DNA of 64,000 nt from Planctomycetota bacterium (lineage in GTDB: Bacteria > Planctomycetota > Phycisphaerae > UBA1845 > UTPLA1). This document shows, in pieces, positions 9,237 to 56,642 of this stretch; positions within the stretch are counted from its first letter, which is position 1, and every line of letters begins with the position of its first letter. The notes beneath the pieces were generated by a model that saw only the letters and a list, made by a program, of their open reading frames with translations, did not search any database and was not told where the DNA came from. The translations under genes and the position numbers were made by a program. The stretch spans positions 1 through 64,000 of the forward strand of contig JACRIM010000027.1 of NCBI GenBank assembly GCA_016235815.1, given 5' to 3'.

Positions 9237-9662
9237 CTACCGCGGACGTTTCTTCGGCTTTGCACGCGGTCGCGCAGCCACGCTCAGGCCTAAGTACTCT
9301 CGGATAACCTTCCGAATGTTTCGACATCGCGCCATGGCTTCGTGTACCTGAGCCTTGGTCGCGTTCTTGCCGGGGTATCGATAATCGACTGCATACAAGG
9401 TTAATGCGCGAAGCTCGGGGCGCCATAATTCCCATTCTGGAATCTCACTCAAAAGCAGATTGAGCAAGTCCGGCAGTTGATGCGTCTTTGGTATTCTCAG
9501 CCCGCTTCGGTGGAGGCAGGCTTTGAGATATTTCTCAATGCACTGTTGGCAAAGGAAGCACGCGAGGTTGCGATTAGGAGCAGTGCGTACGCGATTCTCC
9601 CGCTCGGCGGAGCGAAAATCGGCCTCGGCCTTCTCGATCCATTCACGGGTGCCGGCGTTCAT
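9237..9662 (-). CDS. HEPN domain protein of an MNT/HEPN toxin-antitoxin module (copy 1)
   Basis: The product is about 141 aa, starting 'MNAGTREWIEKAEADFRSAE'. It carries the HEPN core 'CFLCQQCIEKYLKACLHRSG', then 'KTHQLPDLL' and the closing YRYPG motif, with a basic tail (RPRAKPKKRPR). The ATG at 9662 lies inside the end of the nucleotidyltransferase gene (20-base overlap), so the two are translationally coupled. In characterised systems HEPN is an RNase toxin that the partner nucleotidyltransferase AMPylates. Toxicity is an inference. Confidence 0.85.
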   Translation of the reverse strand: MNAGTREWIEKAEADFRSAERENRVRTAPNRNLACFLCQQCIEKYLKACLHRSGLRIPKTHQLPDLLNLLLSEIPEWELWRPELRALTLYAVDYRYPGKNATKAQVHEAMARCRNIRKVIREYLGLSVAARPRAKPKKRPR

Positions 9663-9963
9663 ACAACGTCTCACCTTTTTCGATAATTTCCTGCATGAAT
9701 CCGTCGCGCATCCTGAGGCGCTTTGCCAATTCCGTCGGGCTACGGACGAGGAGATCCACACCAAATCGAGGATTTGCCCGATTCAGGATCTCCAACGCCT
9801 TGTGCGCGGAGTTGCCCGAATACGGCATAACCACAAGCAGATCGACGTCAGAATCGCGCTGGGGTTTTCCATAGGCATAGGAGCCAAAGAGAATGATGCG
9901 CAGAGGCCGGTATTCATCGGCGATGCAGCGGGCTAATGAACGAATGTCACGAAGGGCAACCAT
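9643..9963 (-). CDS. MNT-type nucleotidyltransferase, antitoxin of module 1
   Basis: The product is about 106 aa from the ATG at 9963. The minimal nucleotidyltransferase signature GSX10DXD is clear in 'FGSYAYGKPQRDSDVDLLVV', and the third acidic residue is in 'FGVDLLV'. In MntA/HepT-type modules this enzyme transfers AMP to the HEPN toxin and neutralises it. It overlaps the downstream HEPN gene by 20 bases. It is closely similar in design to the second module at 11.9-12.5 kb. Confidence 0.87.
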   Translation of the reverse strand: MVALRDIRSLARCIADEYRPLRIILFGSYAYGKPQRDSDVDLLVVMPYSGNSAHKALEILNRANPRFGVDLLVRSPTELAKRLRMRDGFMQEIIEKGETLYERRHP

Positions 9964-10013
9964 GTTGAAGCAATAGAGTACCACGCCGCTCACACGCAGG
10001 CACGCGCGATGAT

Positions 10014-11603: not shown

Positions 11604-11861
11604 TCAGTTTATTGCGGAGTAGGCGATTTGGGCAACCATGCCGATGGCACTGGCGGCGACGAGGATCGCGCCGATCCATGCGTACGCCTTGTCGGGGGCG
11701 GTGTGAAGCGCGGAGGTGATGGCGGAGTAGGAGATCGGGATACCTGCGACAAGGGCGATCGTACCGACCACCGCGAGGGGATGGCCTCAGCAGTAAACGA
11801 GCCGAAGGCCGAATCCGGCGGCGGGGAGGCAGGAGGTGAGTAGGGCGAGTTTGCCGGTCAT
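11604..11861 (-). pseudogene. Small membrane protein ORF interrupted by an in-frame TGA
   Basis: The minus-strand frame from the ATG at 11861 reads 'MTGKLALLTSCLPAAGFGLR' then LVYC, a TGA at 11787-11789, and continues in frame with two hydrophobic spans ('VVGTIALVAGIPISYSAI' and 'WIGAILVAASAIGMVAQIAY') to a TGA at 11604. The ATG overlaps the HEPN stop by four bases (ATGA), as in a coupled operon. It is most likely a nonsense-mutated gene, or the second part starts separately at a GTG. Selenocysteine is unlikely without a SECIS element or partner genes. Function unknown. Confidence 0.5.
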
Positions 11862-12247
11862 GCATCAGCCCTATTCAGAATCACCAACAGTTTTGATCGA
11901 TAGGCCTTGCAAAACGATAACGCTCGTTCCGCGGCGTTTCGGTCGGCGCTTTCGCCGGGGTACCTGTATTGGACGGCCGCAAGAGTTAGGAACCGTAATT
12001 CGTTCGCATCACTCAACCAGGTGGGTGAAATCAGACGAATTAATCCATCCAGGATTTGTAAATCATGGGTGAAGGGCGGTGTCTGGGAATTCGCAATGAC
12101 GACTGCTTTCATGAGTTTTTCGATCGCTTGCTGACAGTGGTAACACACGGCGTCATAGACCGGGCTGTCGCTGCGCGCGAATTCGTGCTCCGCGACTCGG
12201 AAATCACCGTTGGCTTTCAATATCCACTCGTCAACGACCGCGCTCAT
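11858..12247 (-). CDS. HEPN domain protein of an MNT/HEPN module (copy 2)
   Basis: The product is about 129 aa, starting 'MSAVVDEWILKANGDFRVAE'. HEPN features are 'VCYHCQQAIEKLMKAVVIA', 'FTHDLQIL' and 'AAVQYRYPGE'. Compared with copy 1 there is no Arg in the few residues before the conserved His, so an R-x4-6-H RNase motif is not obvious. Its ATG overlaps the MNT gene by 17 bases and its stop overlaps the next ATG. The predicted role is ribonuclease toxin or cofactor, regulated by the MNT partner. Confidence 0.85.
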   Translation of the reverse strand: MSAVVDEWILKANGDFRVAEHEFARSDSPVYDAVCYHCQQAIEKLMKAVVIANSQTPPFTHDLQILDGLIRLISPTWLSDANELRFLTLAAVQYRYPGESADRNAAERALSFCKAYRSKLLVILNRADA

Positions 12248-12548
12248 AAAGCACTTTGCCCTCATCCAATGCGGAACGAATCAACGGATCATACTCTCGA
12301 TAGCGTCGCTCAACGTCGTCGGGGCGACGTGTGATGAGGTCGATGGCAAAGGGTGGATCAATCCGTCCCAGGATTTCGAGCGACTTGTCAAGCCACTTTC
12401 CCTCAAAAGGCATGATGACGAGCAGGTCAACATCCGAGTATTCCCGTGCCTGCCCTCGGGCATGCGAACCGAAGAGGATGATCTTCTCCGGATCAAATTC
12501 TTCCGCTACGCGGCGTGAGAAGTCAGTGATGTCATTCATGGCGACCAT
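12231..12548 (-). CDS. MNT-type nucleotidyltransferase, antitoxin of module 2
   Basis: The product is about 105 aa. The motif 'FGSHARGQAREYSDVDLLVI' is a full GSX10DXD signature, and 'FAIDLITRRP' supplies the third acidic position. The ATG at 12548 has TGAGG upstream at normal spacing, and an in-frame ATG lies at 12539. It starts only 18 bases after the stop of the nuclease-like gene, which makes it part of that operon. The family AMPylates HEPN partners. Confidence 0.87.
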   Translation of the reverse strand: MVAMNDITDFSRRVAEEFDPEKIILFGSHARGQAREYSDVDLLVIMPFEGKWLDKSLEILGRIDPPFAIDLITRRPDDVERRYREYDPLIRSALDEGKVLYERGR

Positions 12549-12566
12549 GGGTTGCCTCACGACGGA

Positions 12567-52767: not shown

Positions 52768-53751
52768 ATGACTAAGGACATTTTCGTATTCGTCGAACAG
52801 CGCAACGGTGCCGTGCTTTCGGCAGGGCTTCAGGCCCTGTCCGCGGCGACCCAACTCGCCGGCAAGACCGGCGGCAACGTCGTGGCCGGTATCATCGGTC
52901 ACGACCTCAGCGCCGCGGCCGGCAAGATTGATAACTCGGGCGCTACGGCGGTTTACGTCTGCGATGCGGAACCGTTGAAAAACTACAACGCATTGAAGTA
53001 CACCCGCGCCCTGGCTGGAATGATCCGCAAGGCCGATCCGCAGATCGTGTTGTTGGCGGCGTCCTTCATGGGCCGCGACCTGGCCCCTCGTGTCGCCATG
53101 CGTCTTGATGCGGGCTTGGCCACCGACTGCACCGAAGTCGATATCGAAGGTGGCGCGCTCATCGCACGACGGCCGATTTACAACGGAAAAGCTTATAGCC
53201 GCGTGCATTTCAACAGCGGGCGCGTACAGATTGCTTCCGTGCGGCCGAACACATTCCCGCTTCCAAGCGGCGGTGGTGCGGCCGAGCGTATTGCTTTCGC
53301 GTTTGCAGCCGACGCCGCTGACGACCGCCAGGTCACGAAGGAAATCGCCCGTACCGGTGGTGAAGAAAAGGACGTAACCGAAGCGTCGATCGTGGTCAGC
53401 GGCGGTCGCAGCCTCAAGAGCGAGGAAAACTTCAAGATTCTCTACGATTTGGCCCATGCCCTCGATGGCGCGGTGGGTGCGAGTCGTGCGGCATGCGACG
53501 CGGGCTATCAACCGCACAGCCGACAGGTCGGCCTCACCGGCAAGACGGTGACGCCGCAGTTGTACGTGGCGTGCGGCATCAGCGGCGCAATCCAGCATCT
53601 CGCGGGCATGCGCGGCAGCCGCCGAATCGTCGCCGTGAATACGGACGCCGAAGCGCCCATCTTCAAAGTGGCGGATATTGGCGTCGTGGCCGATCTCTTC
53701 ACGTTCGTTCCGCTCCTCACGGAGGAAGTGAAGAAAGTGAAAGGACATTAG
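52768..53751 (+). CDS. etfA: Electron transfer flavoprotein alpha subunit
   Basis: The product is 327 aa. The C-terminal FAD domain carries 'SRQVGLTGKTVTPQLYVACG' followed by ISGAIQHLAGMRGS, the EtfA signature, and 'IVAVNTDAEAPIFKVADIGV'. The N-terminal domain is ETF-like. It passes electrons from acyl-CoA dehydrogenases to the quinone pool with EtfB, which is not in the window; none precedes or follows it. The downstream Fe-S protein is the likely membrane acceptor but is separated by a HEPN pair. Confidence 0.93.
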   Translation: MTKDIFVFVEQRNGAVLSAGLQALSAATQLAGKTGGNVVAGIIGHDLSAAAGKIDNSGATAVYVCDAEPLKNYNALKYTRALAGMIRKADPQIVLLAASFMGRDLAPRVAMRLDAGLATDCTEVDIEGGALIARRPIYNGKAYSRVHFNSGRVQIASVRPNTFPLPSGGGAAERIAFAFAADAADDRQVTKEIARTGGEEKDVTEASIVVSGGRSLKSEENFKILYDLAHALDGAVGASRAACDAGYQPHSRQVGLTGKTVTPQLYVACGISGAIQHLAGMRGSRRIVAVNTDAEAPIFKVADIGVVADLFTFVPLLTEEVKKVKGH

Positions 53752-53783: not shown

Positions 53784-54203
53784 ATGAGCCAAACACTAAA
53801 CCGGACCAGATTTCGGCGCCTTGCGGAAACACGCCTGCAGGATGCACGGACGCTGCTGGTCCATCGACGATTCTCCGCTGCATATTATCTGGCAGGCTAT
53901 ACGGTCGAGTGCGCTTTGAAGGCGTGCATCGCAAAGAAGACCCGTCGATACGATTTCCCGGACAAGGATCGTGTACAAAAGAGCTACAGCCACAATCTCA
54001 AACAGCTTTCCGAGCAGGCCGGCCTTAGCATTGAGCTTGAGCGACTCGGTGACCAACGATTCGCCGATTACTGGGATGTTGTAAAGGACTGGTCAGAAGA
54101 ATCGCGTTATACTGTAGTGAAGGAACGGATGGCCCGGCAGATTGTTCGGGCAATCTCAGACCCACGACATGGTGTACTCCGATGGTTGCGCGCTCACTGG
54201 TAG
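53784..54203 (+). CDS. HEPN domain protein of a two-gene module
   Basis: The product is 139 aa. HEPN features are 'ARTLLVHRRFSAAYYLAGYT', 'VECALKACIAKKT' and 'YSHNLKQLSEQAGL'. The HEPN family includes RNase toxins of toxin-antitoxin and abortive-infection systems. It overlaps the next gene by 22 bases and begins 32 bases after etfA. There is no nucleotidyltransferase partner, unlike the two MNT/HEPN modules at 9-12.5 kb. A toxin role is inferred. Confidence 0.8.
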   Translation: MSQTLNRTRFRRLAETRLQDARTLLVHRRFSAAYYLAGYTVECALKACIAKKTRRYDFPDKDRVQKSYSHNLKQLSEQAGLSIELERLGDQRFADYWDVVKDWSEESRYTVVKERMARQIVRAISDPRHGVLRWLRAHW

Positions 54204-54568
54204 AGAAGGACATAGACGCCGGCAGACGAGTTGCCGATGCCCTTAGCCAGGCACAAACTCCGGTGCAGGCGGTGCTCTGGTTGTATTTGCCTGAGTTTGA
54301 GGAGTTTCGCCTACTTGTTGCGACGAGCATTGTGGATCGAGATGGCCCGCTTGCGGCTTACAAGGCGATTCGCGAGGCATTGGAGGGAATACCTGAGTCG
54401 CAGCGACCGGCGCCATTTTCAATTAGCGCGGTCAGTCCCAGCGATTCCGTAGTGCGCGGACTCCGAAAGGTCGTTCGGGCCGGACCTGCGGGCAGCGATG
54501 TCCGAATTAGCAATACACTTGTGGATGACGTCTATGTTCAGGACGCCTTCGTTTACAGACTAAACTGA
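54182..54568 (+). CDS. Unknown partner of the HEPN protein
   Basis: The 128-aa product is unlike any family I recognise. It starts 'MVARSLVEKDIDAGRRVADA' and has an amphipathic core with 'PVQAVLWLYLPEFEEFRLLV' and 'AYKAIREALEGIPESQRPAP', with a beta-rich C-terminus ('VRISNTLVDDVYVQDAFVYR'). No MNT, HTH or PIN motif is visible. It is fused by a 22-base overlap to the HEPN gene, so the two are probably co-regulated and may be antitoxin and toxin. Confidence 0.65.
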   Translation: MVARSLVEKDIDAGRRVADALSQAQTPVQAVLWLYLPEFEEFRLLVATSIVDRDGPLAAYKAIREALEGIPESQRPAPFSISAVSPSDSVVRGLRKVVRAGPAGSDVRISNTLVDDVYVQDAFVYRLN

Positions 54569-54602: not shown

Positions 54603-56642
54603 ATGAATCCCCACGCGATGACAATCCTGTTGTTCGCTGCCTGGAGCATCTTTGGATGGCAGATCCTTCGCCGCTATCGCCTGATGACCGTCGGTCCGGG
54701 CGAGATTCGGCTCGACAACATCGGCGAGCGTCTCAAACGCACGTGGGAATACGCTTTCGTCCAGAAGCGTATGCCTCGTTACTACTGGGCCGGCATCGCC
54801 CACAAAGTCATCTTCGCCGGATTCATGGTGCTGCTGTTCCGTACGCTGCTGCTGTTCGGCCGCGGATACTCGGCGGAGTTTGATTTCTGGGGCGTCCTAT
54901 CCATCGACAGTGCCATCGGCGGCGCCTATTCCTTTGTGAAGGATGTTTTCGCCGTTCTCGTTATCCTCGGCGTTCTGGTCTTTTTCTACTACCGACTGGT
55001 CAAGAAACTCCCGCGCATGACCCTTTCCGGAGAAGGGTTGCTCATCCTCGGCATCATTATGTCCATGATGTTCAGTGATATTCTCCACGACGCTGCCGAG
55101 CAGGTCTTGCAGGGCAGAAGCTGGACATGGGCCGAACCGGCAGGCTCGCTGGTCGCACTCTTACTGGTTCGCGCGAGCGAGGGCACGCTTGATGTGCTAT
55201 CCCAACTTGGCTTCTGGACGCACGTCAGTCTCGTCCTGCTGTTCCTGAATCTCCTGCCGAACAGCAAGCACTTCCATGTCATCACCGCGATTCCAAACGT
55301 CTTCACGCAAAGCCTGTATCCGCGCGGGCGATTGCCAAATGTCGCCGACATCGAGGGCAAGATCGAGCGCGAAGAGACGCTGGGGCTGAAGTCCATCGAG
55401 CAGCTCACGTGGAAGGGTGTGCTCGATTTGTACACTTGCACTGAATGCGGCCGCTGTACTGACAACTGCCCCGCCGCGAATTCCGGAAAGCTCCTCTCGC
55501 CGAAGCAACTGACGCTCGACCTGCGAGACTATCTGTACAAGAACGAAAAGGCACTCGTCGGCGCGAAGGGGTCCGGTGCAAACGGCGACTCATCGTCCGG
55601 CTCATTCAGCCTTGCCGAGTTGGTGCCAAACATCATCAAACCCGAAGTGCTTTGGGCCTGTACGACCTGCGGGGCGTGCGAGACGGAGTGCCCGGTGTTC
55701 ATCACCTATGTCGACAAAATCGTCGACATGCGGCGCAATCTCGTCATGGAGAAGTCCGAGTTCCCCGCTGAATTGCAGAACGCCTTCCGTGGCATGGAAT
55801 CGAGCGGCAATCCGTGGAGCTTCCCAGCGAGCGACCGTGCCGCCTGGACCGAGGGATTGGACGTTCCGCGCATGGCCGAAAAGCCCGACGCAGCCGTGCT
55901 CTTTTGGGTCGGCTGCTCGGCGTCTTTCGACGATCGGGCGCGAAAAATCGCCCGCGCCACGGCCAGTCTGCTAAAGGCCGCCAAGGTTGATTTTGCCATC
56001 CTCGCCGAAGAGGAGCAATGCACTGGCGACCCGGCGCGCCGAGCGGGCAACGAATTCCTTTTCCAAATGCTCGCCCAGATGAACGCCGAGACGCTGAACC
56101 GCTATCAACCCAAGACCATCGTCACGACCTGCCCGCATTGTTTCAATACGCTCCTCAACGAATACCCCGACTTCGGTGCGAAGTTCAAAGTCGTGCATCA
56201 CTCCGAGTTTTTGTCCAACCTCGTCCGCGAGGGCAAACTCAAGCCCACGAACCGCATCGATGCCAAAGTCGCCTTTCACGACTCGTGCTACCTCGGCCGC
56301 TACAACGAAATCTACGAGCCGCCGCGCGAGACGCTGCGAAAAATCCCGGGCCTCACGGTCCTTGAGCCGCGCGAAACACGCGATCGGGGCATGTGCTGCG
56401 GAGCCGGCGGTGCCCAAATGTTCAAGGAAGAGGAACACGCCAGACCCGGCGTGACGGGTGAGCGCGTCAATGAAAAGCGCACCGATCAATTGCTCGCCAC
56501 GAAACCTGATATGGTCGCGTCGAGCTGCCCCTTCTGCCAGCGCATGTTGATCGACGGGCTGGCCGGAAAAAGCCGCGAAGATGTCAAGCAATACGACATT
56601 GCCGAACTGCTCTGGCAGTCAGTGGAAACGCCGTCCGCCTGA
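54603..56642 (+). CDS. Membrane-bound Fe-S oxidoreductase, ETF:quinone-oxidoreductase (EtfD-like)
   Basis: The product is 679 aa. Residues ~1-240 hold about six TM spans (NarI-like cytochrome-b-type). A dicluster 4Fe-4S segment follows, with 'CTECGRCTDNCPAANS' about residue 280 and 'CTTCGACETECPVF' about 353. Then two CCG domains of the heterodisulfide-reductase type occur ('GRYNEIYEPPRETLRKI', 'MCCGAGGAQMF' near 600, 'SSCPFCQRML'). This matches EtfD-like proteins that pass ETF electrons to menaquinone. It lies two genes after etfA, interrupted by the HEPN pair. Confidence 0.9.
   Translation: MNPHAMTILLFAAWSIFGWQILRRYRLMTVGPGEIRLDNIGERLKRTWEYAFVQKRMPRYYWAGIAHKVIFAGFMVLLFRTLLLFGRGYSAEFDFWGVLSIDSAIGGAYSFVKDVFAVLVILGVLVFFYYRLVKKLPRMTLSGEGLLILGIIMSMMFSDILHDAAEQVLQGRSWTWAEPAGSLVALLLVRASEGTLDVLSQLGFWTHVSLVLLFLNLLPNSKHFHVITAIPNVFTQSLYPRGRLPNVADIEGKIEREETLGLKSIEQLTWKGVLDLYTCTECGRCTDNCPAANSGKLLSPKQLTLDLRDYLYKNEKALVGAKGSGANGDSSSGSFSLAELVPNIIKPEVLWACTTCGACETECPVFITYVDKIVDMRRNLVMEKSEFPAELQNAFRGMESSGNPWSFPASDRAAWTEGLDVPRMAEKPDAAVLFWVGCSASFDDRARKIARATASLLKAAKVDFAILAEEEQCTGDPARRAGNEFLFQMLAQMNAETLNRYQPKTIVTTCPHCFNTLLNEYPDFGAKFKVVHHSEFLSNLVREGKLKPTNRIDAKVAFHDSCYLGRYNEIYEPPRETLRKIPGLTVLEPRETRDRGMCCGAGGAQMFKEEEHARPGVTGERVNEKRTDQLLATKPDMVASSCPFCQRMLIDGLAGKSREDVKQYDIAELLWQSVETPSA

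Follow-up and report, generated by a model that had tools for sequence, protein, structure and literature searches.

A HEPN gene and its overlapping partner gene between etfA and an EtfD-like gene: a candidate toxin-antitoxin-like module with an undescribed partner family

During analysis of a Planctomycetota genome we examined two small overlapping genes, encoding a HEPN protein and a 128-aa partner, which on balance probably constitute a mobile pair of toxin-antitoxin (TA)-like type that has settled within a metabolic operon. The partner represents a real and widespread family that has no model in the libraries searched. The best reading is that this partner family is undescribed, HEPN TA-like modules as such being already known; the pair was not described in the literature searched (mostly open papers) on PDC-M28, on HEPN with BolA and on TA systems within housekeeping operons. 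The features of the locus are as follows, with positions given in the window, by which we mean the whole stretch of 64,000 nucleotides that was analysed.

52768..53751, + strand: etfA, electron transfer flavoprotein alpha subunit (Pfam ETF E=1.3e-40, ETF_alpha E=2.7e-35), upstream and outside the cassette
53784..54203, + strand: HEPN protein, 139 aa (Pfam PF05168 E=1e-6, AF2 model, alignment and motif tally)
54182..54203, + strand: overlap of 22 bases between the HEPN and partner genes (from the sequence)
54182..54568, + strand: partner protein, 128 aa (no family match; AF2 model and 24-member alignment)
54603..56642, + strand: EtfD-like membrane iron-sulfur oxidoreductase (Pfam CCG E=9.3e-34, 4Fe-4S domains), downstream and outside the cassette

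The extents of the two genes, their overlap and their position had been given by a first-pass annotation of the DNA letters and are exact. All four genes are read from the same strand, with spacers of 32 bases between etfA and the HEPN gene and 34 bases between the partner and the EtfD-like gene. The ATG of the partner is formed from the final base of one HEPN codon (A) and the TG of the TGG codon for W134, itself a further conserved tryptophan of the HEPN family, and the overlap suggests that translation of the two proteins is coupled. A simple scan found no sigma-70-like promoter around the cassette, which is therefore probably transcribed with the etf genes. Neither a target-site duplication nor a recombination signature was found at its edges. 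In the module that we favour, the HEPN protein would act on or bind RNA and the partner, its synthesis coupled through the overlap, would bind the HEPN protein and restrain it. Riding on the etf transcript would ensure steady co-expression of the two proteins and could make loss of the cassette costly.

The association of the two genes is nearly constant. In nearly all loci whose flanks are long enough, the gene immediately preceding the partner encodes a member of the same HEPN subfamily. Of the 22 other loci in which the HEPN gene is intact, 19 have a partner start codon at exactly the 22-base overlap (ATG in 15 of these 19) and two overlap by 7 bases. Given that homologues with open frames occur across phyla and that the overlap is maintained in these 19 loci, the pair is no product of chance. 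Searches seeded with the HEPN protein recovered approximately 30 intact relatives, all except one (L200) with a recognised downstream partner, and partner-seeded searches revealed nine loci in which an intact partner adjoins a frameshifted, truncated or absent HEPN gene (L092, L093, L095, L099, L101, L108, L083, L084 and L087). Partners thus outlast broken HEPN genes and intact HEPN genes are almost never alone, as would be expected if the HEPN protein is the harmful half, although this asymmetry is partly a product of partner-seeded searching and some HEPN frameshifts may be assembly errors. As in type II TA systems, the genes are small, adjacent and co-oriented, and their distribution is patchy and includes mobile elements.

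Homologues of the partner were gathered by single-protein and profile searches; an initial contig scan that used the window protein by itself as query gave no match. The family comprises about 30 loci from many phyla, and is also carried by two plasmids and by a phage recorded from Klebsiella. Within the order to which the window belongs, homologues are present in 6 of 114 genomes, including that of the window, and others occur in additional genomes of the phylum. Named metagenome-assembled genomes contribute 25 loci, three of them partial, from Planctomycetota, Acidobacteriota, Desulfuromonadaceae and other Deltaproteobacteria, Chloroflexi, Nitrospirales, Hydrogenedentota, Roizmanbacteria and Proteobacteria; the Phycisphaerae representative L090 and genome G017 of the window's order are one genome, so that the window most likely stems from this planctomycete lineage. 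The window partner has no match in Pfam, NCBIfam or PADLOC, and none of 24 family members has a meaningful match in these libraries. A scan of IMG/VR with the partner profile also gave no match. Hence the suggestion of the first-pass annotation that the partner is of a new kind stands with respect to all families searched, including known antitoxins, and the scans agree with its statement that helix-turn-helix and PIN domains are absent. One of the plasmids, pAJ4131 (13.9 kb), carries two BrnT/BrnA pairs in addition to the HEPN pair (L115:3837-5494); one of these, with a DUF6236 gene, is directly upstream of the HEPN pair and the other is elsewhere.

The first gene product clearly belongs to the HEPN superfamily, as previously noted, with a PF05168 score of 29.4 bits against a cut-off of 22. 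Its AF2 model (pLDDT 90.5) aligns with solved HEPN structures (TT1696, ST0689, AF0298, sacsin and TM0613) at Z 10-13 over 109-117 residues, the scores including 13.0 for 1ufb, 12.9 for 1wol and 11.5 for the sacsin HEPN domain; searching solved structures by sequence yielded no relatives of either protein. Residues Y39, E42, C43, K46, H70, W97, W103, R108 and Y109 are conserved in the alignment, and Y39, E42, K46, H70, W97, W103, R108 and Y109 are among the invariant positions. However, none of the 24 HEPN proteins has the canonical RX4-6H RNase motif at the conserved R108-Y109, so that the usual kind of RNase activity is not predicted. HEPN proteins lacking this motif may either employ alternative active-site residues or bind RNA non-catalytically (Anantharaman et al. 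2013, PMC3710099). The designation "toxin" must accordingly be amended to one that derives from gene organisation and distribution rather than from an active site. Both the missing motif and the lack of a recognised DNA-binding domain in the partner, which many type II antitoxins possess, count against a TA-like module. In its favour are the near-constant pairing and conserved overlap, the wide but patchy family with plasmid and phage members, the empty or differently filled sites in relatives, and the several genomes that have lost the HEPN gene but kept the partner.

The AF2 model of the partner (pLDDT 86.6, pTM 0.80) is confident and has no clear match to any known fold. The predicted order of elements is alpha-beta-beta-alpha-alpha-beta-alpha followed by a C-terminal beta hairpin. 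Foldseek returned nothing under E 0.04, with RimP-N and BolA among the top rows (BolA at E 0.1-1), and no significant similarity was found in a viral structure library. All VIA rows fell below Z 6.5 and are rated non-diagnostic by that server: a nucleotidyltransferase at 6.4, RsfS at 5.3 and BolA at up to 4.8. The first of these, the putative nucleotidyltransferase 2rff (rmsd 3.8 over 88 residues), was the top structural row for an assignment to the minimal nucleotidyltransferases (MNT). This assignment was dropped, since the partner has no GSX/DXD motif, as the first-pass annotation had observed, shows no profile similarity (0.1-0.2% in hhalign comparisons with 21 MNT sequences) and has a different order of elements. 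Its predicted element order resembles that of BolA, which lacks the C-terminal hairpin; firm membership of the BolA family is not supported by direct profile comparison (0.6-0.7% in hhalign), nor is there a match to Pfam BolA (PF01722). We note that related HEPN proteins in the order are accompanied by a second partner group, p2 (84-125 aa), which is BolA-like at 92-96% probability in profile comparisons using just three BolA sequences. Diverged members of the window family score 96.8% against that family and give a weak collinear alignment with p2 (20-33%), which makes a common BolA/KH-like origin of the window partner and p2 plausible. The structural and profile comparisons hint that the window partner leans towards a BolA/KH-like fold rather than MNT. 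The combination of a HEPN protein with a small alpha/beta partner is a module of wider occurrence, whose partners fall into at least two groups, p2 being the BolA-like one, and the first-pass interpretation of the pair is to be amended in this sense.

To place the insertion in context, 40 etfA-etfD junctions were measured in the window's order. Most are short, and the window-type pair is absent from nine other junctions of the window's own family in which etfA adjoins etfD; the pair is thus not fixed at this site. Gaps of at least 500 bases occur at 10 of the 40 junctions, with the following contents.

Window-type pair: window and G054
p2-type HEPN pair: G076 and G077
DUF4258 gene with a YgiT/MqsA-like gene: G082, G075 and G073
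YgiT-like gene with another open reading frame: G080
Lipoprotein-like open reading frame: G103
No clear gene: G100

DUF4258, seen with its YgiT/MqsA-like partner in the etfA-etfD gap of loci L024, L027 and L031, has been regarded as the toxin domain of a TA system whose partner lies strictly downstream (PMC10790755). The pair of G054, a member of another family, is sister to the window copy (support 97/89), yet its EtfD matches that of the window at only 51% over the N-terminus and EtfD proteins of the window's own family are mostly more alike. This could reflect one old insertion that has often been lost, or a junction that was filled twice. The first-pass description of a TA-like cassette with a new partner inserted into a metabolic operon therefore holds for the two-gene module, the partner and the operon, but not for a single insertion, given the sister pair in G054 and the other HEPN or DUF4258/YgiT pairs at this junction. 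A claim that the junction is a unique hotspot was withdrawn, because atpG-atpD junctions, used as a control, are filled at least as often, mostly by four-helix-bundle proteins, which occur there in genomes of a single family, and in one case by a HEPN/p2 pair. TA-like or HEPN pairs occupy 8 of 40 etfA-etfD junctions versus 1 of 27 atpG-atpD junctions (Fisher p=0.07). The etf junction is a permissive site and no proven hotspot.

Window-type pairs are also found between ftsH and fusA, lptF/G and selO, aroF and tyrA, mraY and murD (where the HEPN gene is broken), and the genes for an HSP70 protein and a 2Fe-2S ferredoxin. HEPN/p2 pairs lie between nuoC and nuoD (L219, L220, L221, L222, L223 and L228, at approximately 1270-2240 on the coding strand), between nuoB and nuoC (L224), in atpA-atpG and atpG-atpD, and ahead of groEL; within one family of the order, the nuo site is occupied in several genomes. 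The operon-sited pairs (ftsH/fusA, lptF/G-selO, mraY/murD, aroF/tyrA, HSP70/ferredoxin, nuo, atp and groEL) are co-oriented with their neighbours, and a copy in Polaromonas (L107) has flanking genes on the opposite strand.

Such locations raise the alternative that the pair is an operon-embedded regulator, in which a non-catalytic HEPN protein, together with a partner of KH/BolA-like type, would attach to the polycistronic mRNA and adjust expression of the energy operon that hosts them. The lack of a catalytic motif and the recurrent nuo site are in keeping with this proposal, as is the presence of related pairs in nuoB-C-D, atpA-atpG, atpG-atpD and etfA-etfD and of the window type at HSP70/ferredoxin. 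A precedent is provided by MtlR-like HEPN proteins, which have been proposed to be non-catalytic RNA binders in their own operons, such as the mannitol operon (PMC3710099). They likewise lack the canonical motif and lie within metabolic operons; the likeness is one of description, and the present HEPN protein differs in having a dedicated overlapping partner and in occupying many unrelated sites. We consider regulation of the host operon unlikely, since the same cassette families adjoin unrelated genes (ftsH/fusA, aroF/tyrA, mraY/murD and a hutU-like gene) and occur on plasmids and in a phage, most relatives lack the pair at this position, and decay of the HEPN gene with retention of the partner is not obviously expected of a regulator.

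An anti-phage (abortive infection) module, in which infection would free the HEPN protein from its partner, appears improbable to a similar degree. The HEPN protein matches the first component of the PADLOC candidate PDC-M28 (PDC-M28A, E=1e-10), its fold resembles AbiV (Z 7.8), and the pair is found in a phage and on plasmids, one partner, that of a Deinococcus plasmid (L009:5001-6383), running on into a DUF3800 domain in the sole fusion seen. However, PDC-M28 requires a 438-aa B component and the adjacent gene encodes the 128-aa protein, which has no PADLOC match; the 438-position M28B model gave only short-stretch matches in the window's genome, on other contigs, and this difference in the second component rules out PDC-M28 itself. 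No other defence genes were seen beside the window copy. That the two are ordinary accessory genes of the ETF pathway, as their position between etfA and its likely electron acceptor gene might suggest, is highly improbable and largely refuted by distribution, as they are absent from most etfA-etfD junctions and have homologues in unrelated operons and mobile elements.

The TA-like module that we prefer resembles HEPN-MNT (HepT-MntA) systems in comprising two small adjacent genes for a HEPN-fold protein and a small alpha/beta partner. In contrast to those systems, the partner lacks MNT motifs and profile similarity, the HEPN protein lacks RX4-6H, and the HEPN gene comes first, whereas the MNT gene normally precedes that of HEPN (PMC3710099). 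The arrangement also recalls the HEPN-NamA neighbourhoods (Anantharaman et al. 2013), in which a HEPN gene adjoins that of an uncharacterised conserved protein; NamA, however, is predicted to have an RNase H fold (PMC3710099) and the present partner is a small alpha/beta protein, in one homologue fused to DUF3800. A large group of HEPN proteins without an MNT partner or RNase motif is hereby given a defined partner family, and a compact pair now allows a direct test of how motif-less HEPN proteins act. Such cassettes are also seen to settle in core energy-metabolism operons, a finding relevant to how TA-like modules persist when they have no promoter of their own. More speculatively, HEPN proteins and BolA/KH-like partners might together form a class of two-gene modules, so far undescribed, that act on RNA and settle in core operons, respiratory ones among them (etf, nuo, atp and HSP70/ferredoxin), on which their expression would depend, either as selfish addiction cassettes or, at the nuo site, as domesticated RNA-level regulators; we regard this as possible but rather doubtful. 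The window partner would then be one branch of a partner superfamily.

Several further genes were seen during the survey. The four-helix-bundle protein of the atpG-atpD gap, open or decayed in L164, L167, L169, L170, L171, L180, L182 and L183, resembles by eye the 23S rRNA intervening-sequence (IVP) type. In L190 and L192, from two other genomes, the same gap contains a gene that by eye encodes an SGNH-hydrolase-like lipoprotein (GDSITQAGGYLR). The window itself contains two ordinary MNT-HEPN pairs on the minus strand (9237-9993 and 11858-12560), approximately 42 kb from the etf locus, in which the MNT motifs read GSYAYG..SDVDLLV and GSHARG..SDVDLLV and the HEPN genes that come next carry a YRYPG motif.
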